Below are positions 5,000 through 26,648 of a stretch of DNA of 36,205 nt, piece after piece. Below the pieces are notes generated by a model, which did no database searches, was not told where the DNA came from, and saw only the letters and a list, made by a program, of their open reading frames with translations. The stretch covers positions 1-36,205 of the forward strand of contig JAUIFC010000018.1 of assembly GCA_030429455.1 (NCBI GenBank), in the 5' to 3' direction. How positions within the stretch are numbered: position 1 is the stretch's first letter; the number at the start of each line of letters is the position of its first letter. The position numbers were made by a program, and so were the translations under genes. Source of the DNA: Bacteroidia bacterium (GTDB lineage: Bacteria > Bacteroidota > Bacteroidia > Flavobacteriales > Flavobacteriaceae).

Positions 5000-6598
5000 T
5001 TATAAGTATTTGATTATGTGTTTTTTAGATAAAATGTTTGGGATTTGCTTTAAACCTAATTTATTTATAATAGCAGGGATTTCTTTTTTATTTGAAGAAC
5101 GCAGATAGAATTGTTCTTTTTTTTGTTCAACTAAACTTAGCTGCATAAGATCTAAGTTTTTTCTTAGTTGACTCTCACTAATCTTATATCCTCTTTGATT
5201 GAGTTTGCTAAGCAAATAATGTTGTATTGTATATGTCATATAGCATAGGCAGATATGTCCTTCTATACGTTTTGATGTCCAGTGATACATAGGACGTGTT
5301 TCAAGGTGGGTTTTAAAAGTTCTAAAAGTTTGCTCTATTTGAAATAGGTGTCTGTAATGGTCTAAAACTGTTGTTACTTCAAGTGTTTTGTTGTTTGTAG
5401 CGATGCATAGAAATCCATCATATTTTTGGTCATTTTCTATTTTATCTTGATCAATACTGTATTTTGAGTCTCCTTCTTTTTTTAGATAAAATCTGGCGGA
5501 TTTGCGTTCTATTTGTGATGGATTTTTCAATAGTTTTTCTGCTTTTTTGATTTTATCTTCTCTGTCTTTTGTGGCTCGTTTACTACTGTATGTCCCAATA
5601 ATGGTTCTGCCATTGTAGGTTATAGTGGTGTATTTTAAAGAAATGACTTCGCCGTCTTTGCCGTATTCCCATTCTTTACTGTAATTATCTAAATTGGTAA
5701 GTTTTGATTTGATGTGAATAGGGAGTGTTTTTAGGCGTTCACCAACAATAAATTCATAGTTATTTTGATTTTCAACTATATCAATATTGTTCTTTGATAG
5801 CATACCTCTATCGGCTACAATAATGATGTTTTCTATCTGGTAATCTTTCTTTAACGTTGCCACAGCATCTTCAAATGTGTGACCTTAGTACTGGTCGCCT
5901 GCGTATAAACGGTAACCTATTGGGTTCTTGTTTTTATCAATCAATAATCCAAAGACAACTTGTACTTTTCCTGTTTTACCATCTTTTGAGAAGCCCTTCT
6001 TACGCAAATCATCAGCTTTATCAGAATCAAAATAAAATGTCGTTACATCATAAAATACAACATCAAGCTTTTGGTTGAATAGATTAAGACCTTTATTGAA
6101 AATAAATCTTTGGATAGTTTTTGCATGTCTTGATAGCTGGTCTAAACTGCGATAAAGATGGTGTAGCTCTACTGTTGACACACCTAGATATTCTTCTTGG
6201 TCAAGGTAACTAATGCGTTTACTACATGGGTCATGAAGACGTTCAATTAACATCAGTTTGACGGCATTGAGCAGATCATACTTAAGTTTTTTACGCTTTA
6301 CGATATTGCCTAATAATTTGTCTAAACCATAATAAGCTAACGCCTTATCTACTACTTGAGAATAGCCATAATTATAACGGTCTATCTCTTGAACTCCTCC
6401 CCCTAAAAGCTCTTTGGGATCACCGCCTCCAAGCTCATAGAAACGCTCTCCAAAGCGCTTAAGCATTGAAGGGGTATAATCGCTTACTTTTCCTAAGGAG
6501 TATAGGGTCTTCTTGACGTATTTACCATTAATGCGGTGGGAAGAGACTATACGTATATACTGTTCGCCATTTTTATTATCTACCTTCAAGTATGCCAT
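5000..6598 (-). pseudogene. IS1634-family transposase with an in-frame stop (TAA at codon 238)
   Basis: The frame runs 532 codons from the ATG at 6598 to the stop at 5000-5002, with a single internal TAA at 5885-5887. The upstream 237 residues include DVVFYDVTTFYFDS, the first catalytic Asp of the DDE domain, and end at the YAGDQY segment. Directly after the stop the same frame continues GHTFEDAVATLKK and then IIIVADRGMLS, the second catalytic Asp. In related transposases a Glu normally sits at the stop position, so a single nonsense change is the simplest cause. Without readthrough the first part has only one catalytic Asp and the element should not move by itself. Confidence 0.9.
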
Positions 6599-8161: not shown

Positions 8162-9598
8162 TTACTTGTTTATCAAATGCATCTCTTTGATATCATGAAT
8201 CTTAGATAATAAATAATCTGAGAGGTATTTTACTTCATTTAAATTCAATCCCCATAGACTTTTATTAGACAGGATGGTATTTAGGGATAGTGTTATATCA
8301 CCTAATTGCCAAGTTTTTTGGAAAAAGGCGATGACCTCTTCATCGTCTCTTAAAGTAATTTTTAAATTCCTATACTCACCTCTGTAATAAAGTAAAAGGT
8401 AGGCAAAAGCCGTTGCTAAGCCTTCAGGGATTTTATCAAATTTGTTTATAAAACTGAGTAAACTTGGCAAAACTCTGACTTTAAATTTGGAAATTGAATT
8501 TAATGAAATATCACTTAAATAATGTTGAATAAATGGATTTTGAAAGCGCTCCAGAACATCCTTAGCATAGATTTCCATAGCTTGGTTAGGTGTTTCTAAG
8601 GAAGGAATAATTTCTTTGAAAATGATATCTTTTATAAATTGTCCTGCCGTTTGATCTTCTATAACGTCCCTCACTTTTTGCAAACCATTCATAATACCGT
8701 AGGCGACCATTGCCGTATGAGCTCCGTTGAGTATGCGAACCTTACGGGTTCTGTATGTTTCTAATTGATTTGTGACTATAATATTAAGACCAGATGGATT
8801 AATGTAAAGCTGTTCTTTCAGAATTTCCGGCCCTTCAATAACCCATAAGTGAAAATACTCTGCATTGACAATGAGATGGTCTTTATACCCAAGTACTTCA
8901 TGAAGTTTTTCTATCCTGCTACCTGGAAAGCCGGGCACAATTCTATTTACCAAAGTATTGCAAAACCAAATATCGTGTTCTATCCATTCTTTAAAGCTTT
9001 CTGGCAGAGACCACAACTCTATGTATTGTAAAACACATTCTTTCAGTTTCAGACCATTATTTTCAATAAGCTCACATGGAAGGATGGTCAAACCTTTTGG
9101 AGGACTAGAGTTAAAGTGTCGGAATCTATGATACAATAAGGCTGTAAGTTTACCCGGGAAAGTTTTTGGCGGGATAGAAAAATTCTTATCCTCCGAATTA
9201 AATTCTATTCCTGCTTCAGTAGTATTGGAAATGATAAATTCTAAATCCGGATTTTCACCTAGAGCGAGGTAAGCGCTGTAATCTTCGTAAGGATTTGTAA
9301 CACCATTTACACAGGTGATTAATCTGAAGGTCTGGATTTTTTTTGAATTTTCTATACCTTCTAAAAGCACATGATATAAACCATCCTGAGCATTGATTAA
9401 TTCTCCCATACCATTTTTTATTGGCTGAATGATTTGGATACCCGCATTAAAATCTGTTTTTTCATTGATGATATCTAACATCCAATCGGTAAACGCACGA
9501 AGAAAATTACCTTCACCAAATTGCAAGACTTTTATGGGTTTTTTGGAACTATCAATTACGGTATTTAGTTTTAATTTTTTCATCTTAATTATATTCAC
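8162..9598 (-). CDS. uxaB: Tagaturonate reductase (altronate oxidoreductase)
   Basis: The protein has 478 residues, the usual length of UxaB in the mannitol dehydrogenase superfamily. The N-terminal nucleotide-binding region reads VLQFGEGNFLRAFTDWMLD, and the catalytic region has KVRILNGAHTAMVAYG with the conserved Lys, Asn and His. UxaB reduces D-tagaturonate to D-altronate with NADH in the cytoplasm, the second step of galacturonate breakdown. The next enzyme, UxaA, is encoded at the right end of the window. Two starts are possible, the ATG at 9598 or the internal ATG at 9583 (MKKLKLN), which looks more like other UxaB proteins. A LacI-type palindrome at 9671-9680 lies upstream, so the gene probably has its own promoter after lacI. 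Confidence 0.9.
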   Translation of the reverse strand: MNIIKMKKLKLNTVIDSSKKPIKVLQFGEGNFLRAFTDWMLDIINEKTDFNAGIQIIQPIKNGMGELINAQDGLYHVLLEGIENSKKIQTFRLITCVNGVTNPYEDYSAYLALGENPDLEFIISNTTEAGIEFNSEDKNFSIPPKTFPGKLTALLYHRFRHFNSSPPKGLTILPCELIENNGLKLKECVLQYIELWSLPESFKEWIEHDIWFCNTLVNRIVPGFPGSRIEKLHEVLGYKDHLIVNAEYFHLWVIEGPEILKEQLYINPSGLNIIVTNQLETYRTRKVRILNGAHTAMVAYGIMNGLQKVRDVIEDQTAGQFIKDIIFKEIIPSLETPNQAMEIYAKDVLERFQNPFIQHYLSDISLNSISKFKVRVLPSLLSFINKFDKIPEGLATAFAYLLLYYRGEYRNLKITLRDDEEVIAFFQKTWQLGDITLSLNTILSNKSLWGLNLNEVKYLSDYLLSKIHDIKEMHLINK

Positions 9599-9670
9599 TT
9601 ATGAGTAGGTCTAGAGTTTTCAAATCTTTTACTAATCTATAAACAATACCAAGTCATTTTTAAAACAATA

Positions 9671-9680
9671 CAATCGATTG
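9671..9680 (-). promoter_or_regulatory. LacI-type operator of the uxaB unit
   Basis: CAATCGATTG is a perfect 10-bp palindrome with the central CG typical of LacI-family sites. On the minus strand it directly follows TATAGATG (9688 to 9681), the same register in which TATCTATG is followed by CAAACG or CAATCG at the two rightward promoters. It is 73 to 88 bp upstream of the possible uxaB starts. Confidence 0.7.
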
Positions 9681-9700
9681 CATCTATATTATTGTTAGTC

Positions 9701-9720
9701 ATTTTATTTTATTTTATTTT
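9701..9720. repeat. (ATTTT)4 pentanucleotide repeat in front of the uxaB promoter
   Basis: Four perfect ATTTT units lie between the lacI stop and the putative uxaB -7 element. On the minus strand they form AAAAT runs that cover the place where a -33 element would lie. Confidence 0.9.
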
Positions 9721-9724
9721 TAAA

Positions 9725-10750
9725 TTACTTATTTCTCAAAGATGATTCTCTAATAATAAGTTTTGGTTGAATAACGGTTTTCTTTGGTAAAACATCTTTT
9801 CCAGTATTTAAAGCATCAAAGAAAAGATTAGCCACAGTTTTACCCATTTCTATAGGATACTGATTAACGCTTGAAATGGAAGGCTCTGTAAATGAAGTAA
9901 AAGGCTCGTTAGAGAATCCTACTATAGCAACTTCTTCAGGTATCTTAATACCATTTTCTTTAAGTACTTGCATCGCACCAAGCGCACAAAAGTCACTGGC
10001 AGAAAAAATAGCATCAAAATCAATATTATTTTTTAACAGATTCTCAGCATGCTTACGGCCATCTTCTAATTGAGAGTTTGCACTTAACACTAAACTCTCA
10101 TCTAAGGCTACACCATGATAAGCAAGTGCATCTGCATATCCACGGTAGCGCTCTTTGTAAATACTTAAATCTCTACCGGTTGTAAAATGCACAATACGCT
10201 TACAACCTTGTTCTATAAGATGAGTCGTAGCTTCATAACCACCTTGGTAATCGTCTATTACCACCTGATCGGCTTGAAGTTGAGGTATAGACCTATCAAA
10301 TAGGATTAGCGGAATACCACTTTCTACAACATCTTGTAGGTGACTAATATCTGTAGTGGTCTTAGAGATTGAAACCAAAACACCGTCTACTTGAGTATTT
10401 AAAAACGCCTTTAAAGCTTTTTTTTCATTCTCTAGATTTTCGTAAGACTGACTCACAATAACATGATAATTAAAACCTTCTGCGACTTGCTCGACTCCTC
10501 TAACAATTGATGAAAAAAAGGCTCGATCTATAAGTGGCACGAGTAAACCAATAATTTGTGTTTTACCATTCCTTAAAGCTGAAGCAATGCTATTGGGTTT
10601 ATAATTAAGCTCTTTAGCCATTTTCAAAACCCTTTTCTTGGTCTTATCGCTAATACGTGGATTATTATTAAGCGACCTAGAAACAGTTGAAGCTGTAACG
10701 TTAAGCCTCTTTGCTATGTCATGTATGGTTACTTTTTTTGATTTGTTCAT
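9725..10750 (-). CDS. LacI-family transcriptional regulator, probable master regulator of the uronate locus
   Basis: With the ATG at 10750 the protein has 341 residues, standard for the LacI family. The upstream in-frame ATG at 10780 adds ten residues not expected in the family. The helix-turn-helix reads VTIHDIAKRLNVTASTVSRSLN and is followed by NYKPNSIASALRNGKT, the hinge that inserts into the central CG of operators. The rest is a periplasmic-binding-protein-like effector domain (IIGLLVPLIDRAFFSSIVRG onward, ending RESSLRNK). The effector is probably a uronate or KDG-like intermediate, inferred from the neighbours only. CAAnCGnTT palindromes occur before uxaB, the receptor gene and the T9SS paralogue, which fits a local regulon. 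Confidence 0.9.
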   Translation of the reverse strand: MNKSKKVTIHDIAKRLNVTASTVSRSLNNNPRISDKTKKRVLKMAKELNYKPNSIASALRNGKTQIIGLLVPLIDRAFFSSIVRGVEQVAEGFNYHVIVSQSYENLENEKKALKAFLNTQVDGVLVSISKTTTDISHLQDVVESGIPLILFDRSIPQLQADQVVIDDYQGGYEATTHLIEQGCKRIVHFTTGRDLSIYKERYRGYADALAYHGVALDESLVLSANSQLEDGRKHAENLLKNNIDFDAIFSASDFCALGAMQVLKENGIKIPEEVAIVGFSNEPFTSFTEPSISSVNQYPIEMGKTVANLFFDALNTGKDVLPKKTVIQPKLIIRESSLRNK

Positions 10751-11209
10751 TTTACTTACTTGTAACGGCAATCTGCACATGTAATAAAATCAATATTGAA
10801 TAAAACTATTATAGCTTGTAGACTCTTCTTATCCTTACGCCATTTACAATAAGTGCAAATATTAATTATAATTAAATATTATAAAGAATATGCAATTATA
10901 CAATTTTTTTTGCTCAATGCATTGCACAACTTATAAATTATTTAATAAAAAAAGTATTGAAATAAACTAGCATGCGTTAAAACGACTTCTCAGACGATGT
11001 TTAAAGAAAATCGATATAAAAATCTCAAAAACAAATATGTGCTATAACATTGTTTTTAAACATTTTATATAATTATACCCCAACCATAAACATTAATTAT
11101 TAGTAAAGTCATTTTTTTCAAAATACTATTTTTTTATTGAATTATTCTTTTTTCTAAAAAGTAAAAAACTGACAAATAGCAGTTTTTTAATATTTTTTTA
11201 ATCTTTTAC

Positions 11210-11240
11210 TTGTGCGAATAATATTTCTTTATTATCTATG
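11210..11240 (+). promoter_or_regulatory. Promoter of the TonB-dependent receptor operon
   Basis: TTG at 11210-11212, a 20-nt spacer and TATCTATG at 11233-11240 fit the Bacteroidota sigma-A pattern (TTG, about 19-20 nt, TAnnTTTG with one mismatch). The same elements with the same 20-nt spacer occur at 21523-21553. The -7 element touches the first operator. Confidence 0.65.
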
Positions 11241-11269
11241 CAAACGTTTTCGCTATGCAATCGATTACA
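11239..11269 (+). promoter_or_regulatory. Tandem LacI-type operators of the receptor operon
   Basis: Two sites are seen: CAAACGTTTTCGC with core AAACGTTT at 11242-11249, and GCAATCGATTAC with core AATCGATT at 11259-11266. The centres are 17 bp apart, as at 21555-21579. Both lie just downstream of the -7 element, where a bound repressor would block RNA polymerase. Confidence 0.7.
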
Positions 11270-11292
11270 TCTCATAAATTAAATCACAACTT

Positions 11293-14142
11293 ATGAAAAT
11301 TCTAAAAAGTTTAAACCTTGTATTATTCGCTTTTGTTATTCATCTATCCTGGGGTAACACGTCAAAGAATTTAATCTATGATGTTCTTGCTTATGAAGGG
11401 GTAATAACCGGTCAGGTCTTTGGACAAAGTGACAATCCCTTACCGGGTACATCAATCATCATCAGGGAAATTAATATTGGAACAGTAACTAATCTTGAAG
11501 GAAGGTTTCAACTTACAAATGTTCCGGAAGGTATACATAAATTAGAGATAGTTTATATAGGTTCTGTTACTGAAGCCCTTGAGGTGGAAGTTAAAGCAGG
11601 CGAAGTGTTAGATATTGGTATTATAAGACTAAAAGAAGAGGTAAACGAATTGGGGGAAGTGGTAGTTACAGCTTCAATAGAAGGGCAACAGCGAGCATAC
11701 AACCAGCAAAAGAATTCAGATCAAATTAAAACAATTGTTTCTGCAGATTTAGTTAACCAATTCCCAGATATAAATGTTAGTGAGGCATTACAACGTGTTA
11801 CAGGAGTTAATATAGAACGAAGTAATGGCGAAGGGACAAACATTCGAATTCGAGGTACACCTAACAATTACACAACAATAACAATAGACGGTGCACAACT
11901 ACCAAATACTAATGGAGAAGAGAGAACAGAGGCATTAGATTTAATTCCAGCTGAACTTTTATCTACAATGGAAATCACTAAAGCTTTGTTACCCGAAAAT
12001 GATGGAGATGCTATTGGAGGAACTGTTAACTTAAAAACACCTGTGGCTACAAGTAAAAAAGGAAAACTAAAAGGATCCATCGCTGGTGGATATGCCTCTA
12101 TTGATGAACGAGAAACAGTTAGGTCTAAGCTCAAATATTCAAAACGATTCTTAAATAAAAGAATAGGAATGATTTTAGGCGCTAGTTATTACACAACAGT
12201 AAGTGGAGAAGATAGAATAGATGGAATATGGAATAATAGAATAGAGTCTGGCGATAGTGAAGCGAGTGAGAGAATTACAGCTTTAGCAGAACTTCAAACT
12301 AGACCAAGTTTAAATGTAAGAGAACGTATAGGTGCTAATGCTACATTTGATTACCGTTTTTCTGAAAATTCAAAAATATTAGCAACTGGTTCTTATTACT
12401 CATTAGTCGATCAAGGCGAGCGATACAGAACACGTTATAGATCCCGAGGTGTTTTTCCTGAACTTGGAAATCCCTTGGTAGCTGGGACAGAAAATGGATC
12501 TGCAAGAATACAAAAAGACCTAGCCGATCAAACCAGACGACGAAGTAACTTTACATTTACTATAGGTGGGGAACATCTCATTAATAATTCTGGTAAACTT
12601 GATTATGGGTACAATTATTCTAACTCCGAAAGAGATGAAGAGGCCTTTAGAAGTGTTTTTGTAAGACGAGGTATCGTTTTCGACATAGACTTATCAAACC
12701 CAGATTTCCCTCAGTATAATCCTAGAGATTTTAATGAATCAAATGCTGCTCAGTATGAATTTCTTGGTTACCAAGTTGAAAAACCTATTACTGTTACAGG
12801 TACTAATCAAACATTCTATGCCAACTACGAACAACCCTTTAAACTAGGGAATAAGATAAATTCTACACTTAAATTTGGTGGTAAGTTGCGATTACAGGAA
12901 AACTCAAGACGAAGATTTAATACACAATATGCAAACTATCAGGGAAATTTTACACTAGATCAAGTGGCAGGGCCTGATCAAGGTAGTATTTTTGAAGGAC
13001 GTTACAATCTTGGTGTCTTTCCATCTGCAAGCAGAATGAGAAGACACTTTGAAGCTAATCAAGATTTATACACTTTTGATGCCGATGAAAGTTTTTTAAA
13101 TACAGAATCAAACAAATATGATGCCCAAGAGGATATAGGTGCTTTATATATTCAAGATAAATTGAGTATTGGCAAATTTTCTGCCGTTTTTGGAGTAAGA
13201 TACGAACATACAGATGCTAACTACCAAGCTAACATTGTTGAAAACAATTTTGGTGAGCTAACATCTACACCTGTTGAAGGTGGCCTAGAATTTGATTTCC
13301 TTTTACCAAGTTTAAGTATGAAATATGCTCTCGGTCCAAGAACAAATTTAAGAGCTTCATATTTTGAATCTTTTGCAAGACCAAACTTCATTGATCTTGT
13401 GCCAACAGAAATCATCAATTTTGCCACCTTACAAGTTAGAAGAGGTAATCCTGATCTTCAGCCAGCCTTTTCTAGAAATTTAGATTTTATGTTTGAGCAT
13501 TATTTTAAAAAGGATGGCACTTTTTCTGTTGGGGTGTATTATAAAAGCATAGATAATTTTATTTTTAACCAACAATCTATCATAACCGATAATCCAGCAC
13601 TTGAGAATTTTCAACTTTTACAAGCTGTAAATGGAGATTTGGCTGAAGTATTAGGGGTAGAAATAACAGCTTCAAAAAAGTTTACATTCTTACCAGGCTT
13701 TCTTAATGGATTTGGAGTGTATGCCAATTACACGTACGTAGATAGTAGTAGTTCTTATACTGGATTACTCAGCGATTTTGATACAGGAGAAACAATAGTA
13801 GCTACAAGACAAGATGTTCCTTTTGTAGGACAAGCAGATCATACAGCTAATGCGGCATTGTATTATGACAAAGGAAAATTCAGTATCAGAGCAAGCTTAA
13901 ACTACCAAAGCGAATCCTTATTAAGTTTTGATGTTGATCCATTCTTTGATTTCATTTTAGAAGAACGCTACCAACTAGATGCAAACGCGTCATACAAGTT
14001 TAATAAAAATCTCTCATTGTTTTTTGAAGCACAAAATTTAACAAATGCCCCTGTTATTGAATATTTAGGAACAAGAGAACGTATGTCTAGACGATTGGAG
14101 TTTGGAACATTCGCGCGTTTAGGTCTTAATTTCAAGTTTTAA
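11293..14142 (+). CDS. TonB-dependent receptor, TIGR01782 type, without SusD partner
   Basis: The protein has 949 residues. After a signal peptide there is a carboxypeptidase-like regulatory domain at about residues 36-110 (ITGQVFGQSDNPLPGTSIII, then GRFQLTNVPEG). The plug follows with FPDINVSEALQRVTGVNIER and GTNIRIRGTPNNYTTITIDG, signatures of the TIGR01782 (Xanthomonas/Caulobacter CUT) class. The rest is a 22-strand barrel ending in a terminal Phe. It should import oligosaccharides across the outer membrane with TonB energy. No SusD-like gene is present in the window. The next gene, 23 bp on, is a surface lipoprotein of a different fold that may serve as substrate-binding partner. A LacI-controlled promoter lies directly upstream. 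Confidence 0.88.
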   Translation: MKILKSLNLVLFAFVIHLSWGNTSKNLIYDVLAYEGVITGQVFGQSDNPLPGTSIIIREINIGTVTNLEGRFQLTNVPEGIHKLEIVYIGSVTEALEVEVKAGEVLDIGIIRLKEEVNELGEVVVTASIEGQQRAYNQQKNSDQIKTIVSADLVNQFPDINVSEALQRVTGVNIERSNGEGTNIRIRGTPNNYTTITIDGAQLPNTNGEERTEALDLIPAELLSTMEITKALLPENDGDAIGGTVNLKTPVATSKKGKLKGSIAGGYASIDERETVRSKLKYSKRFLNKRIGMILGASYYTTVSGEDRIDGIWNNRIESGDSEASERITALAELQTRPSLNVRERIGANATFDYRFSENSKILATGSYYSLVDQGERYRTRYRSRGVFPELGNPLVAGTENGSARIQKDLADQTRRRSNFTFTIGGEHLINNSGKLDYGYNYSNSERDEEAFRSVFVRRGIVFDIDLSNPDFPQYNPRDFNESNAAQYEFLGYQVEKPITVTGTNQTFYANYEQPFKLGNKINSTLKFGGKLRLQENSRRRFNTQYANYQGNFTLDQVAGPDQGSIFEGRYNLGVFPSASRMRRHFEANQDLYTFDADESFLNTESNKYDAQEDIGALYIQDKLSIGKFSAVFGVRYEHTDANYQANIVENNFGELTSTPVEGGLEFDFLLPSLSMKYALGPRTNLRASYFESFARPNFIDLVPTEIINFATLQVRRGNPDLQPAFSRNLDFMFEHYFKKDGTFSVGVYYKSIDNFIFNQQSIITDNPALENFQLLQAVNGDLAEVLGVEITASKKFTFLPGFLNGFGVYANYTYVDSSSSYTGLLSDFDTGETIVATRQDVPFVGQADHTANAALYYDKGKFSIRASLNYQSESLLSFDVDPFFDFILEERYQLDANASYKFNKNLSLFFEAQNLTNAPVIEYLGTRERMSRRLEFGTFARLGLNFKF

Positions 14143-14165: not shown

Positions 14166-15698
14166 ATGAATACAAAACATATAACATTTAGAATTTTACT
14201 AGTATTGAGTTTTTTTGGAATGATAAGTTGTGAACTTAATGACGATGAAAATCTTCCAGATCCAGAGTATAGTTCGCCAATTATCAACAATGTAGAAGAT
14301 GGTTCTGATTTAGGACTTTTGGTTGGGCAACTTATACTTTTCCCTAATATAAATCTTGTTGGAGATGTAGGACTAACCAATTTTAAAGTTATTTTAGATG
14401 GAAATGTCTTGCAAGACGAAAACTACGATGGTACAACTGGGGATATAACAACATCTTTCGAACTTGAAGTTCCAGAAGAATGGCTTGGGACAACTAGAGA
14501 TTTAAGATTTGAAGTTACAGATATTTTAGGTAACACTACAACAGCTTCAGTCAATGTTATTATCGGAGTGCTCATCCCAGATTATGACATAGAAGATATT
14601 GATTTGAATGGTCAAGCCTTTAAAAGAATTACTGGAAATATTAACGTCAACGAAACTCTTGACAATTCTTCATTATGGATTATAGCAGATAGTGTAACTG
14701 TTGCGCCACAAACAAAACTTAGTATTACGCAAGGTACTCAGATATACGCAGAAAATTCTGAAACTATACTTTATGCCACAGAACTAAGCGAACTTGATTG
14801 GCAGGGTACCGCGACAGAACCTATTGTTTTTAATACGTTATCAAATGCACCAGGACAAGGAGCAGGCGATGATACACCAGGGCAGTGGTTAGGTATTAGA
14901 ATAGATGGTACAGGTGCTGGGTCTAATTCTGGTATCGTAAGATATGTAAGACAAATGTATGCTGGTAGTATAGAGTTTTCAAACGCTTTAAGATTAGAAG
15001 ATGTAGGAAGTGGTACAACAATGGAATATATTCAAATATACAGTAATGCCAACAGAGGTATAAGATTAAATGGAGGGGATGTGAATATCAAATACCTAGT
15101 CTCAACAAATGGTCAAGGTACCGGCGTAAGAATGGATGATGGCTGGAGTGGATTAGGACAGTTTTGGGTTATCAATAAAGATATTGCTGCTGGGACAGCT
15201 CTTGAAGGACGAGAAGGTACTCCAGTAGTTAGTAATGTAACAATTACAGGTCAAGGCTTCAACAACCCTGGTGCAGTACCGGATGGAAATGGCATAAGAT
15301 TACGAGATGGTGGTAATTGCGGTATATACAATACGGTTGTAACAGGTGTCGATAGGAGCTTAAGATATAGTGGTGGCTCTGGACAAGGTGTGATAGATGG
15401 TGTAAGTTTTTTCAGAGATTCTGCAAGTTTTAATAATGGTGAAGATGGAGGAACTGGATTCCACAGCTCAGCAGGATTTTTTAACCCTACAGATGAAGAC
15501 TATGAGCCAATGTTTAATAATACAGTTGATTCATTTACAATAACTGATTCATATGTTGGGGTAAGCACTCTAAACAGTAGTCCAGCGGGTGCTATTGGAC
15601 CGTTCTTTACAGATGTAAATTATATAGGTGCAGTAGAACCGGGCAATGATTGGACGGTTGGCTGGTGCTTAAACCTTGACGGCACGTTAAGACAATAA
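14166..15698 (+). CDS. Surface lipoprotein with Ig-like plus parallel beta-helix-like body, receptor partner
   Basis: The protein has 510 residues with a lipoprotein signal ending at Cys22 (GMISC), followed by acidic residues as in surface-exported Bacteroidota lipoproteins. Residues of about 38-135 look like an Ig-like domain (VEDGSDLGLLVGQ to ASVNVIIGV). The remainder, from DLNGQAFKRITGNINVNET on, is a Gly/Asn/Asp-rich repetitive beta structure typical of right-handed parallel beta-helices. This body is clearly homologous to the protein at 21669-23165, with shared NAPGQGAGDD and NNPG/NSPG...PDGNG segments. No catalytic motif is recognised. Its place directly after a SusD-less receptor suggests glycan capture or a lyase-like role, which is inference. 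Transcribed with the receptor. Confidence 0.6.
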   Translation: MNTKHITFRILLVLSFFGMISCELNDDENLPDPEYSSPIINNVEDGSDLGLLVGQLILFPNINLVGDVGLTNFKVILDGNVLQDENYDGTTGDITTSFELEVPEEWLGTTRDLRFEVTDILGNTTTASVNVIIGVLIPDYDIEDIDLNGQAFKRITGNINVNETLDNSSLWIIADSVTVAPQTKLSITQGTQIYAENSETILYATELSELDWQGTATEPIVFNTLSNAPGQGAGDDTPGQWLGIRIDGTGAGSNSGIVRYVRQMYAGSIEFSNALRLEDVGSGTTMEYIQIYSNANRGIRLNGGDVNIKYLVSTNGQGTGVRMDDGWSGLGQFWVINKDIAAGTALEGREGTPVVSNVTITGQGFNNPGAVPDGNGIRLRDGGNCGIYNTVVTGVDRSLRYSGGSGQGVIDGVSFFRDSASFNNGEDGGTGFHSSAGFFNPTDEDYEPMFNNTVDSFTITDSYVGVSTLNSSPAGAIGPFFTDVNYIGAVEPGNDWTVGWCLNLDGTLRQ

Positions 15699-21227: not shown

Positions 21228-21522
21228 AAAATAAATCGTTTGAAATTTAAATATTGCCATTATTTGCACAAGTTATCAGAATACTCCAGAGGTATTGGTT
21301 ATTCTAAATCAACATTGAATTTCAATACATAATATTACAAAAGTCTCTCAGTAAAGATATAATTATATATATTTTAAATATGTATTAATAATTTACATAT
21401 GAGACATTAACATCTTTTATGTATGGATAGAGCTCAAAAGCATTTTGTTCTAAAGAAAAGTTGATATTTATCAGAAAATGAAATTTTCAATAAGGATAAG
21501 TGACAATTTTTGATCAAATTAC

Positions 21523-21553
21523 TTGCTTAAATGAATATAAATAACTATCTATG
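21523..21553 (+). promoter_or_regulatory. Promoter of the T9SS beta-helix gene
   Basis: TTG at 21523-21525, 20-nt spacer, TATCTATG at 21546-21553. This repeats the elements and spacing found at the receptor promoter. Confidence 0.65.
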
Positions 21554-21584
21554 CAATCGATTTCGCTGTGCAATCGTTTACACA
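21551..21584 (+). promoter_or_regulatory. Tandem LacI-type operators before the T9SS beta-helix gene
   Basis: Sites are ATGCAATCGATTTCGC with core AATCGATT at 21555-21562, and GTGCAATCGTTTACAC with core AATCGTTT at 21572-21579. Centres are 17 bp apart as at the receptor promoter. Confidence 0.7.
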
Positions 21585-21668: not shown

Positions 21669-23165
21669 ATGAAACGTTTTTACTTTTTAATCACGGCTTT
21701 GTTCGTGTTTTCGTTTATGTCTGCTCAATATACCATTGCAGATGTGAATTTGAATGGCCAGGCTTTTAAAAAACTTACAGGAACCGTTGATGCCAATGAA
21801 ACTTTAGATAATACTAGTCTTTGGATTATTGCAGATAGCGTGCGCGTAGCAACAAATGCTAAACTTACTATTACACAGGGCACACAAATATTTGCTGAAA
21901 CACCACAAACGGTCTTACTTGTTGAAAATCTTGAAGATTTAGATGGTGGTGGTAATCCTATTGGCGTATCTGCTTTTGGTGAAATAGATTGGCAAGGCAC
22001 ATCCACAAATCCTATCGTTTTTAATTCACTTGCCAACGCTCCGGGACAAGGTGCTGGTGATGATTCTGCAGGACAGTGGGACGGAATTCGTATTGAAGGT
22101 GGTGGTCCAGGATCTAATTCGGGAATTATAAGGTATGTAAGAGTAATGTATTCTGGTCTGGGTTCTAATGGTCTTGAATTAAGAAATGTTGGAAACGGAA
22201 CTACTGTGGAATATGTGCAAGTGTACAAAAATGACGGCACAGCCGGAATAAGAGTAAATTCTGGAGATGTTAATTTAAAATATATTGTAGCAACAAACGG
22301 CGCAGACAGGGGATTAAGATTCGATGATGACGGCGATACCGGAGGTGGCGGTTGGTCTGGAGCAGGTCAATTTATTGTTGTTAACAAGGATATTCCGGCA
22401 GGGAATGCCATCGAAGCGAGAGATAATACTTTACCTATACTCAGCAACGTCACCATAACTGGTGTAGGCTTTAATAGTCCTGGCAGTACACCAGATGGAA
22501 ATGGTTTTAGAGTTCGGGATGATGGCGACCTGAAAATATATAATACAGTAGTAACAGGTGTAGACAGATCTGTAAGAATAGATAACAATTCAGGTATTGC
22601 TAACGGTGACAGTGTATTCGCTAATTCTGCGAGTTTTGACAATAATCCTGGCCAAGATAGTGGTACTGGTTTTCACAGTTCTGCAGATGTCTTTAACCCA
22701 ACTAGCGCTAGTTATGATCCTAGCTTTAATAATTCTGTAACCCCTTTCAGTATAGTAGATTCTTATGTAGGAACCAGTACAGCAGACAGTACACCTGCTG
22801 GCGCCTTAGATCCGTTTTTTGACGATGTTAATTATGTTGGTGCCGTACAAGCTGGAGACGGCAATGACTGGACTTTTGGCTGGACTGTTACTTTAGATGG
22901 TACGGTTTTATCAGTAAGCGATAATAGTCTTATGCCGGAAATAGTGGTTTACCCTAACCCTGTTCAGGATAACTTAAAATTAAATACCAATTCTAATATT
23001 TCGGCAGTAGCCCTTTATAACACCTTAGGTAAAAAGGTTTATGAAAATTTATCTTTTGACAATAACAACAAACAAATTGATATGTCTCAATTTGAGCGCG
23101 GTGTATATTTACTAAAAGTCATGTCTGATAATGTACCCCAAACTTTTAAAATTATCAAAAAGTAA
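21669..23165 (+). CDS. T9SS-secreted beta-helix-like protein, paralogue of the receptor-linked lipoprotein
   Basis: The protein has 498 residues. A cleavable signal ends at FMSAQ. The mature part starts directly with DVNLNGQAFKKLTGTVDANET, the body it shares with the lipoprotein at 14166-15698, and lacks that protein's Ig-like domain. The last 75 or so residues (EIVVYPNPVQDNLKLN to PQTFKIIKK) are a type A T9SS C-terminal sorting domain, so the product should be released or attached outside the outer membrane. No catalytic residues are recognised. The body is Gly/Asp/Asn-rich with regular beta turns, as in parallel beta-helices. It has its own LacI-type promoter copied from the receptor operon, which implies joint expression. 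Confidence 0.65.
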   Translation: MKRFYFLITALFVFSFMSAQYTIADVNLNGQAFKKLTGTVDANETLDNTSLWIIADSVRVATNAKLTITQGTQIFAETPQTVLLVENLEDLDGGGNPIGVSAFGEIDWQGTSTNPIVFNSLANAPGQGAGDDSAGQWDGIRIEGGGPGSNSGIIRYVRVMYSGLGSNGLELRNVGNGTTVEYVQVYKNDGTAGIRVNSGDVNLKYIVATNGADRGLRFDDDGDTGGGGWSGAGQFIVVNKDIPAGNAIEARDNTLPILSNVTITGVGFNSPGSTPDGNGFRVRDDGDLKIYNTVVTGVDRSVRIDNNSGIANGDSVFANSASFDNNPGQDSGTGFHSSADVFNPTSASYDPSFNNSVTPFSIVDSYVGTSTADSTPAGALDPFFDDVNYVGAVQAGDGNDWTFGWTVTLDGTVLSVSDNSLMPEIVVYPNPVQDNLKLNTNSNISAVALYNTLGKKVYENLSFDNNNKQIDMSQFERGVYLLKVMSDNVPQTFKIIKK

Positions 23166-24773: not shown

Positions 24774-24818
24774 ATTTTGATAATTCTGAAAAAAATACAA
24801 ACCACAAAACCAGTGTAT

Positions 24819-26648
24819 ATGCACATCAAAAAATCATCGATACTAAAAATGATGCTCGCTTTTCATTTCTTATGGACAGGCTTGTTGTTTGCACAAAATA
24901 ATGTCGCCCAAAACTCCAGAATTATTCAAAACATAGACAGCAGAGAAAAACAAACCCTTGATGGTCTGTGGCAAATTATTATAGACCCTTTAGAAAACGG
25001 CTACTACAATCATCAATACGGCCTGCGAACAAAAAAAGGATTTTTCAACAATAAAAAACCAAAAAAACCTTCAGACCTCATAGAATACGATTTTGACAGC
25101 GACTATCAGCTTAATGTCCCGGGCGACTGGAATACTCAAATGGAGAAACTTTACTATTACGAAGGTACCATTTGGTATAAAAGAAGTTTTGATTTCAAAA
25201 AACAATCCGGACAAAAAGAAATACTTTATTTTGAAGCGGTAAACTACCATGCAATCGTTTACTTGAATGGCCAGAAAATAGGCGAACATAAAGGTGGTTT
25301 TACGCCTTTTCAATTTGATGTCACAGAACAGCTTAAAGAAGGCGAAAACATCTTAATTGTAAAAGTAGATAACCAACGTAAAAAAGAAGGCATCCCAACC
25401 CTAAACATGGACTGGTGGAATTACGGTGGCATTACGCGTTCAGTTCATCTACTTAAAGTTCCGGAGCAGTATATTTCAGATTATAGCATTCAGGTCAATA
25501 AAGACAACCCCAAACTTATTGAAGGCTGGATAAAAGTTGAAAATCACAACGCAGATGAACAAGTTAACCTGGCTATTCCTGAGCTTAAAAAAGAACTGAA
25601 ACTCACAGCAAAAAACGGAATTGCAGAGTTTAGTTTCAAAGCCTCTCCAAAACTGTGGACGCCTGAAAACCCTAAACTGTACAATATTCAAATAAGTACT
25701 AAAACTGATAAAGTTGAAGATGAAATAGGTTTTAGAACCATAGAAACCAAAGGCCATAAAATCCTGCTCAACGGCGAAGAAATTTTTCTCAAAGGCGTTT
25801 GCATTCACGAAGAAGCACCTTACGGCTTAGGAAGAATAACTTCAAACGAACAAAACCAGATTCTACTGGGATGGGCTAAAGAATTAGGAAGTAATTTCGT
25901 GCGATTGGCCCATTACACCCACAATGAAGCCATGGTAAAAGAAGCCGAAAAGATGGGCATTTTGGTTTGGGCCGAAGTACCGGTTTATTGGTCTGTAGAT
26001 TTCGAAAATCCTGAAACACTACAAAACGCCACCACGCAACTCGAAGACATGATTGCCCGAGACAAAAACAGAGCTGGTGTTATCCTGTGGTCTGTAGCCA
26101 ATGAGACTAAAGAAATTGAAGCACGAAATGTTTTTCTCAAAACCCTAACAGAAAAAGCCAGAGCCGCAGATCCTACACGTTTAATCACAGCTGCTCTAAA
26201 TTCCTAAAAGAAAAAAGGCAAAGACCAACCCATAGGAATAGAAGATAAGTTAGGAGAATATGTAGATGTTATCGGCATAAACAATTATTGCGGTTGGTAC
26301 GGTAGTGACCCCAAACCTTGCAGGGATGTAAAATGGACAAACAGCTACAACAAACCCGTCATCATGAGTGAATTTGGTGGTGGTGCTTTACAAGGCATGC
26401 ACGGAGAGCCTAATGAAATTTGGACAGAAGAATACCAAGAGGCCATCTATGAAAATAACATATTAATGTTTGAAAATATCGAGTTTTTAAGCGGTACAGC
26501 GGCCTGGATTTTAAAAGATTTTCGCTCTCCAAGAAGAACCTTGAGGCGCATCCAGAATGACCATAATAGAAAAGGCATTATTTCTGAACATGGGAAAAAG
26601 AAACTGGCATTTTATACTTTACAAGAGTATTATCGCTCAAAAAAATGA
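24819..26648 (+). pseudogene. GH2 beta-glucuronidase-like gene with an in-frame stop at codon 463
   Basis: The frame from the ATG at 24819 codes for 609 residues apart from one TAA at 26205-26207, and after the stop it continues without shift to 26648. The signal peptide ends near LLFAQ. The N-terminal sugar-binding domain (LNVPGDWNTQ, TIWYKRSFDF), the central domain and the TIM barrel are typical of GH2 glucuronidases. The acid/base Glu429 (SVANE) is before the stop but the nucleophile Glu518 (MSEFGGGA) is after it. The truncated product should therefore be inactive, unless the stop is read through or is a sequencing error. Intact enzyme would remove beta-linked glucuronate. An operator-like 13-mer lies inside the gene at 25250-25262. 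Confidence 0.85.
25250..25262 (+). promoter_or_regulatory. Operator-like 13-mer inside the GH2 gene
   Basis: TGCAATCGTTTAC is identical to 21570-21582 in the second operator of the T9SS beta-helix promoter. It lies in coding sequence, so it could be an auxiliary LacI site or chance. Confidence 0.3.

Follow-up and report, generated by a model that had tools for sequence, protein, structure and literature searches.

A local uronate/pectin-type regulon under repression by the LacI-family product of the gene at 9725-10780 is the probable reading (roughly 0.83, judged from the sequence) of the DNA analysed here, hereafter the window, which is one whole contig of 36,205 bases from a 4.13-Mb assembly of 310 contigs that is about 86% complete. 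In the proposed mechanism, each of the tandem palindromes would be bound by a repressor dimer, one centred where transcription is predicted to begin and the other near +18, and RNA polymerase would be blocked; uronate or a uronate breakdown product would release the dimers, whereupon the operon of the receptor would be induced jointly with uxaB and the gene of the secreted paralogue. A shared LacI regulon had already been proposed in a sequence-only reading of this DNA, and the proposal is supported by the co-occurrence of motif and LacI relatives, by the uronate/pectin-type promoters that carry the motif, and by the placement of the -7 box. The regulon is of a known type, with a distance of 17 bp between the paired sites that is slightly unusual; through it, a single predicted repressor links the breakdown of uronates inside the cell with a receptor and a secreted protein of the polysaccharide cluster.

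The gene cluster and its predicted operators

Gene content and promoter type suggest that the DNA comes from a member of the Flavobacteriaceae or of a near family. The features on which the argument draws are listed below; operator scores refer to a position weight matrix (PWM) built from 40 sites of relatives, with a maximum of 24.7.

8162-9598, minus strand: uxaB, tagaturonate reductase gene preceded by the single site (NCBIfam NF002969, 595.9 bits, cut-off 359)
9668-9683, minus strand: single predicted operator before uxaB, ATACAATCGATTGCAT (PWM 16.4 of 24.7)
9725-10780, minus strand: LacI-family regulator, candidate repressor, 351 aa, with relatives in genomes of the family
11210-11212, plus strand: TTG, -33-like element of the receptor promoter, followed by a 20-nt spacer
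11233-11240, plus strand: TATCTATG, -7-like element of the receptor promoter, one mismatch to the consensus TAnnTTTG (PMC9723704)
11239-11252, plus strand: O1 of the receptor promoter, TGCAAACGTTTTCG, predicted operator, weak match (PWM 2.4)
11256-11269, plus strand: O2 of the receptor promoter, TGCAATCGATTACA, predicted operator, near-best match (PWM 24.5)
11293-14142, plus strand: TonB-dependent receptor, whose gene directly follows the doublet (NCBIfam TIGR01782, 504 bits, cut-off 310; also Pfam)
14166-15698, plus strand: protein without an assigned family whose start looks lipoprotein-like by eye; paralogue of 21669-23165
21523-21525, plus strand: TTG of the second module, followed by a 20-nt spacer
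21546-21553, plus strand: TATCTATG, -7-like element of the second module
21552-21565, plus strand: O1 of the second module, TGCAATCGATTTCG, predicted operator (PWM 11.2)
21569-21582, plus strand: O2 of the second module, TGCAATCGTTTACA, predicted operator (PWM 20.1)
21669-23165, plus strand: T9SS-sorted paralogue behind the second doublet (Por_Secre_tail, 52.4 bits; TIGR04183, 48.9 bits)

The protein encoded at 9725-10780 has the domain structure of a LacI/GalR regulator, an N-terminal helix-turn-helix (Pfam PF00356, LacI HTH, 64.3 bits, cut-off 27) combined with a periplasmic-binding-type ligand domain (PF00532, Peripla_BP_1, 117.1 bits, cut-off 22.2). Profile searches of the further cluster genes identified a sulfatase, GH88-type and GH28 proteins, a GH2 fragment, UxuA, KduI and a DctPQM transporter; two short-chain dehydrogenases are also encoded, one of which is presumably KduD-like, judging by its position. 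Taken together, these genes make up a pectin-type cluster for uronate polysaccharides; given the sulfatase gene, the natural substrate may perhaps be a sulfated, possibly algal, uronan. A scan of 20 window proteins revealed no SusD, and Pfam and NCBIfam searches of the 14166-15698 protein returned no match; this protein and its paralogue at 21669-23165, with which it shares 58% identity (234 of 405 columns), might, as a guess, form a surface glycan-binding pair in place of SusD. The plus-strand GH2 gene is apparently broken: its first open reading frame (24777-26207) stops within the TIM-barrel domain, and the same frame, GH2-like by eye, reopens right after the stop (about 26208-26645); a pseudogene or an assembly error could account for this. 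Upstream of the uronate cluster, two adjoining open reading frames on the minus strand (5000-6598) look like the two halves of an insertion-sequence transposase.

In a repeat search, 11206-11269 was paired with 21519-21582, a direct repeat of 64 nt that is 73% identical. The promoter elements that the sequence-only reading had placed at 11210-11269 and in a second copy were recovered within two bases of the positions given; the second repeat ends at 21582, not at 21584. The palindromes have their central CG at 11245-11246 and 11262-11263 in copy 1 and at 21558-21559 and 21575-21576 in copy 2, each pair 17 bp apart. Compared in register, the modules agree at 33 of 37 positions over the core that starts with TATCTATG and closes with the second palindrome; outside this core, identity amounts to 7/20 in the spacer, 26/60 in the 60 bases upstream and 22/60 in the 60 bases downstream. 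Since identity is concentrated in the 37-bp core, the part common to the modules is the -7-like box with the two palindromes, and TTACTTG stands at the -33 position. The mirrored change reported earlier for the first core is there, AAACGTTT in copy 1 versus AATCGATT in copy 2, and the palindrome is kept; a one-sided change in the second palindrome of copy 2, AATCGTTT, was absent from the earlier account. The mirrored change shifts the receptor O1 away from the core common among relatives, where the left position is T in 38 of 40 sites and the right position A in 39 of 40, and O1 of both modules has the same non-consensus right half. By the matrix, O2 is the strong site in both promoters (24.5 and 20.1) and O1 the weak one (2.4 and 11.2); the poor match of the receptor O1 to the relatives' motif, 2.4 of 24.7, counts against the regulon reading. 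A third copy in the same register had been claimed before uxaB; the palindrome is present there, preceded on the minus strand by TATAGATG, and a TTG at the matching distance is absent.

Single copies of CAANCGNTT carry little weight, since the count observed in the window (12 against 5.39 expected) is reached in 3 of 100 shuffles; with two mismatches, GCAANCGNTTNC is not above chance in the window (79 vs 85.57). Paired copies 14-21 bp apart, on the other hand, occur twice in the window and in none of 500 dinucleotide shuffles, and the 4.13-Mb assembly holds two matches to the paired palindromes, both in this window (control 0). The motif TGYAAWCGWTTRCA was found at 26 places in the assembly, comprising four strict places (the two O2 sites and two inside ORFs elsewhere) and 22 with one mismatch (the uxaB site, one in a GH2 coding region, 19 in ORFs elsewhere, and one outside ORFs that does not have the central CG). 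Beyond the window lie 22 of these places (2 strict, 20 with one mismatch), all in ORFs except the one without the central CG; apart from the uxaB site, only the distal palindromes (the two O2 sites) keep the CG outside ORFs at up to one mismatch. From these locations, good predicted operators outside ORFs are restricted to this cluster, and an even spread of the motif over unrelated promoters, which the sequence-only reading had regarded as refuting evidence, is not what the assembly search found. The site at 25250 (TGCAATCGTTTACT) was set aside as lying within the GH2 coding region. At up to two mismatches, 278 places in the genome compare with 218 for the control; weak sites are therefore not callable, the count being only slightly above the control.

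Regulator and motif among relatives

Searches with the LacI protein were run in 60 and then in 397 genomes, and 20 stretches around its relatives were fetched from 19 genomes; a comparison with the genome collection gave seven loci, the best 46% identical in Hymenobacter, and these seven are left out of the counts below. In the regions around the relatives (43-71% identical), a perfect TGYAANCGNTTRCA was present in 13 of the 19 genomes, and three others had only one-mismatch sites that keep AATCGATT (L079, L086, L090); neither was found in the remaining three, L071 (where the contig is cut inside the gene), L074 and L089. At least one homologue of uxaB, DctPQM, GH28, UxuA, KduI or KduD lies nearby in 18 of 19, the exception being L074. 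The DNA-reading helix of the window protein is TASTVSR; among 19 relatives that show the helix, twelve have TAATVSR, three SAATVSR and one (G259, 59-61% identical) TASTVSR, and the three deviating helices, SVATVSR in L074 and TPSAVSK and STSAISK in L089, belong to two stretches without a good site. The L071 stretch, from the same genus (G018:C112), carries homologues of KduI, KduD, DUF4861 and DctPQM and, after them, a LacI gene (71% identical) truncated where the contig stops; this gene order differs from that of the window.

Genome-wide counts point in the same direction. Twelve genomes with a close LacI relative, namely 11 of the best 13 from the 397-genome search (own genome excluded) together with G018 from the 60-genome search, contain 38 strict sites distributed over ten genomes, and the reversed control gave none. 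Against the regulon reading, no strict site was found in two of the twelve, G018, whose LacI gene (71% identical) is truncated and whose assembly is 79% complete, and G157, in which a one-mismatch site is present (L079). Twelve genomes without a match at E 1e-88, which do encode more distant LacI proteins, yielded two strict sites in two genomes, both with the AAACGTTT core (control 1). The 43 stretches examined contain 42 strict sites, 39 of them outside ORFs. Thirty neighbouring proteins, hand-chosen among those flanking the sites, include nine TonB receptors, seven Pectate_lyase_4 proteins, one Pel9A-like protein, two pectinesterases and two UxaC, as well as one each of KduI, GH28, GH106, GH10, PfkB, a short-chain dehydrogenase, LacI, Laminin_G_3 and a protein with no match; the AAACGTTT-type site at L152 accounts for the LacI gene and for one of the receptors. 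Predicted sites precede uxaB here and uxaC and kduI in relatives (sites only). The even palindrome with a central CG is seen in the window sites and in the 40 relatives' sites, which were picked by a strict pattern that itself includes the central CG. That the operator motif tracks the LacI relatives across genera is well supported by these sequence comparisons, and the motif should be usable for reading pectin-type regulons across the bacterial family.

Some or all of the sites could instead be read by a different LacI protein, with the receptor O1 and its AAACGTTT core serving another regulator and the promoter receiving two inputs. The strict sites in the 12 genomes without a close relative, all of the AAACGTTT type, would fit this explanation, as would the AAACGTTT-core site that adjoins another LacI gene in G334 and the presence of at least two further LacI-like proteins in the own genome, with the helices SISTVSK and SVSTVSK. 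Yet the AATCGATT core occupies the same position in copy 2, the receptor O2 and the uxaB site keep AATCGATT, and no CG-centred palindromes were found near the two other LacI genes (4.0 and 3.5 kb scanned); a second reader of these sites is considered unlikely.

Marginally less likely again is a recent copying of one module, in which case the bases common to both would be inherited, not selected. The genes at 14166 and 21669 are indeed paralogous (58% identical), and both O1 sites show TTTCG where relatives have TTRCA, along with a common TTTCGCTnTGC linker; but identity falls to 35-43% just outside the 37-bp core, the palindromes are largely intact despite four differences within this core, and the motif stands at fitting promoters in other genera. 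Common descent and function of the modules are compatible and can both hold.

Promoter placement and the 17-bp doublet

Flavobacterial sigma-A promoters carry a TTG about 19-21 nt upstream of the -7 box. Transcript-start mapping in Flavobacterium psychrophilum places this box, TAnnTTTG, at -12 to -5 (PMC9723704). Each of the 40 relatives' sites was oriented towards the closest ORF downstream that begins with ATG and has 90 codons or more; the ORF-internal L153 and L154 were left out, L140, about 50 bases into an ORF with a doubtful start, was kept, and L152, with its AAACGTTT core beside another LacI gene, was included. TAnnTTTG lies at offset -8 exactly in 14 of these sites and within one mismatch in 26; between offsets -20 and +7, the only other position with exact matches is -6 (2 exact, 14 within one mismatch), where the operator's own TG contributes to the match. 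TTG is commonest at offset -30 (12 of 40). The window modules have TATCTATG, one mismatch from the box that 14 of the 40 relatives' sites match exactly, with TTG 20 nt upstream. The last base of the -7 box stands one position ahead of the operator in relatives; in the window the box overlaps the operator by two bases, so that the register differs. By the rule of the published start map (PMC9723704), the operator is predicted to cover the transcript start in relatives; in the window, transcription would begin at the C in the middle of O1 (11245 and 21558), and the centre of O2 would lie near +18. Since the operator lies directly behind TAnnTTTG, occlusion of the promoter by a repressor is likely. 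A scan of 9500-11400 for sigma-70-type promoters, a type not expected in this phylum, gave 7 against 10.9 expected.

Repression is preferred because a protein bound over the predicted start should block initiation, and it is very improbable that the LacI protein is an activator or that the palindromes are the catabolite-control site of a global regulator: the motif resembles the CcpA cre consensus WTGNAANCGNWNNCWW (PMC9598941) and among solved structures CcpA chains come closest in sequence, but the sites lie over the predicted start, where any bound protein should be in the way, the protein reaches 202.8 bits against the NCBIfam ccpA cut-off of 442.35, and the good outside-ORF sites of the own assembly are those of this cluster, which does not resemble a global regulon.

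Within the window and 46 stretches, four site pairs 10-45 bp apart were found at up to two mismatches each, three of them at exactly 17 bp (two here, one in G203) and one at 12 bp (L152) adjoining a different LacI gene. The G203 doublet, two perfect predicted operators before a pectate lyase gene in another genus, was first met in a search with the spacing fixed at 17 bp, and the spacing-free search also returned it. The control motif TGYAAWGCWTTRCA is not independent: it lies two mismatches from a perfect operator, and the single pair that it formed was the G203 doublet; a second control motif gave no pairs. At three mismatches, the operator formed 19 pairs (3 at 17 bp, the others scattered) and the controls 15 and 5. 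A genus-wide tandem module was considered and rejected, none being found in the other 59 of the 60 genomes (17 bp fixed, two mismatches). In the 397 genomes, two mismatches gave 17 tandem matches in 14 genomes, against 9 for the reversed control, and only the two of the window and the G203 doublet (listed on both strands) are operator-like by their letters. Orthologues of the receptor were not found beyond the own genome at E 1e-150 in the 397 genomes (two candidates scored per listed genome); at E 1e-60, with all candidates in four genomes, the only match was in G259, 31% identical. The T9SS paralogue likewise had no match outside the own genome at E 1e-40 in the 397 genomes (no more than three candidates scored per listed genome). 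With no orthologous receptor or paralogue found, the two target promoters are not comparable across species.

In the available text of a survey of the LacI family, tandem sites are reported for about 20% of regulated operons, with spacing peaks at 13, 22 and 32 bp (PMC4052901). The window sites resemble these tandem operators in being even palindromes with a central CG arranged in tandem; their 17-bp spacing differs from all three peaks, although 17 bp may occur in the published histogram. A spacing of 17 bp would place two dimers on nearly opposite faces of the helix at 10.5 bp per turn, which makes direct dimer contact unlikely. A distinct LacI architecture is a tentative and rather doubtful proposal: dimers 17 bp apart on opposite faces, the strong +18 site loading the weak start site by DNA bending and not by protein contact, with the doublet serving surface genes here (the receptor and the secreted paralogue) and a single site serving uxaB. 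Against such a role at surface genes, the sites before TonB receptors and pectinases in relatives are single, except in G203. The 17-bp doublet offers a simple test case for cooperation of LacI dimers outside the published spacing peaks. In G334 (L152:3021-3046), two overlapping TGCAAACGTTTGCA-type palindromes 12 bp apart lie between a LacI gene and a divergent TonB receptor; this spacing is near the unexplained 13-bp class of the survey (PMC4052901).

Comparison with known systems

The Staphylococcus aureus CcpA site ATTGTAATCGATTACATT contains the same 14 bases as the operators of the relatives (PMC9598941). A member of the LacI family can therefore read such a palindrome, which is not an identification of the window protein as CcpA; unlike CcpA, it falls below the curated model, and its predicted regulon is local. 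A literature search of partial coverage, which is no proof of absence, returned no description of this operator in flavobacteria. The pectin utilization locus of Gramella flava encodes a pectinesterase, a polygalacturonase, pectate lyases, kduI/kduD, uxaB and uxaC, together with a TRAP-type transporter, a TonB receptor and an annotated repressor, exuR, for which the available text describes no operator (PMC5306329); it differs from the window cluster, which includes a sulfatase gene and in which a scan of 20 proteins revealed no SusD. Compared by description, the closest regulatory parallels are the Bacteroides thetaiotaomicron regulators UxaR (BT0824), KdgR (BT0487) and UxuR (BT1434), which also belong to the LacI family and are predicted to control galacturonate/glucuronate catabolism; the KdgR regulon also includes a few periplasmic or extracellular proteins (PMC3878776, PMC4052901). 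According to the accessible parts of these sources, the large rhamnogalacturonan and pectin loci of B. thetaiotaomicron are governed by hybrid two-component systems (PMC3878776, PMC4052901), whereas in the system described here a single LacI motif also stands before genes for receptors and for secreted pectinases.
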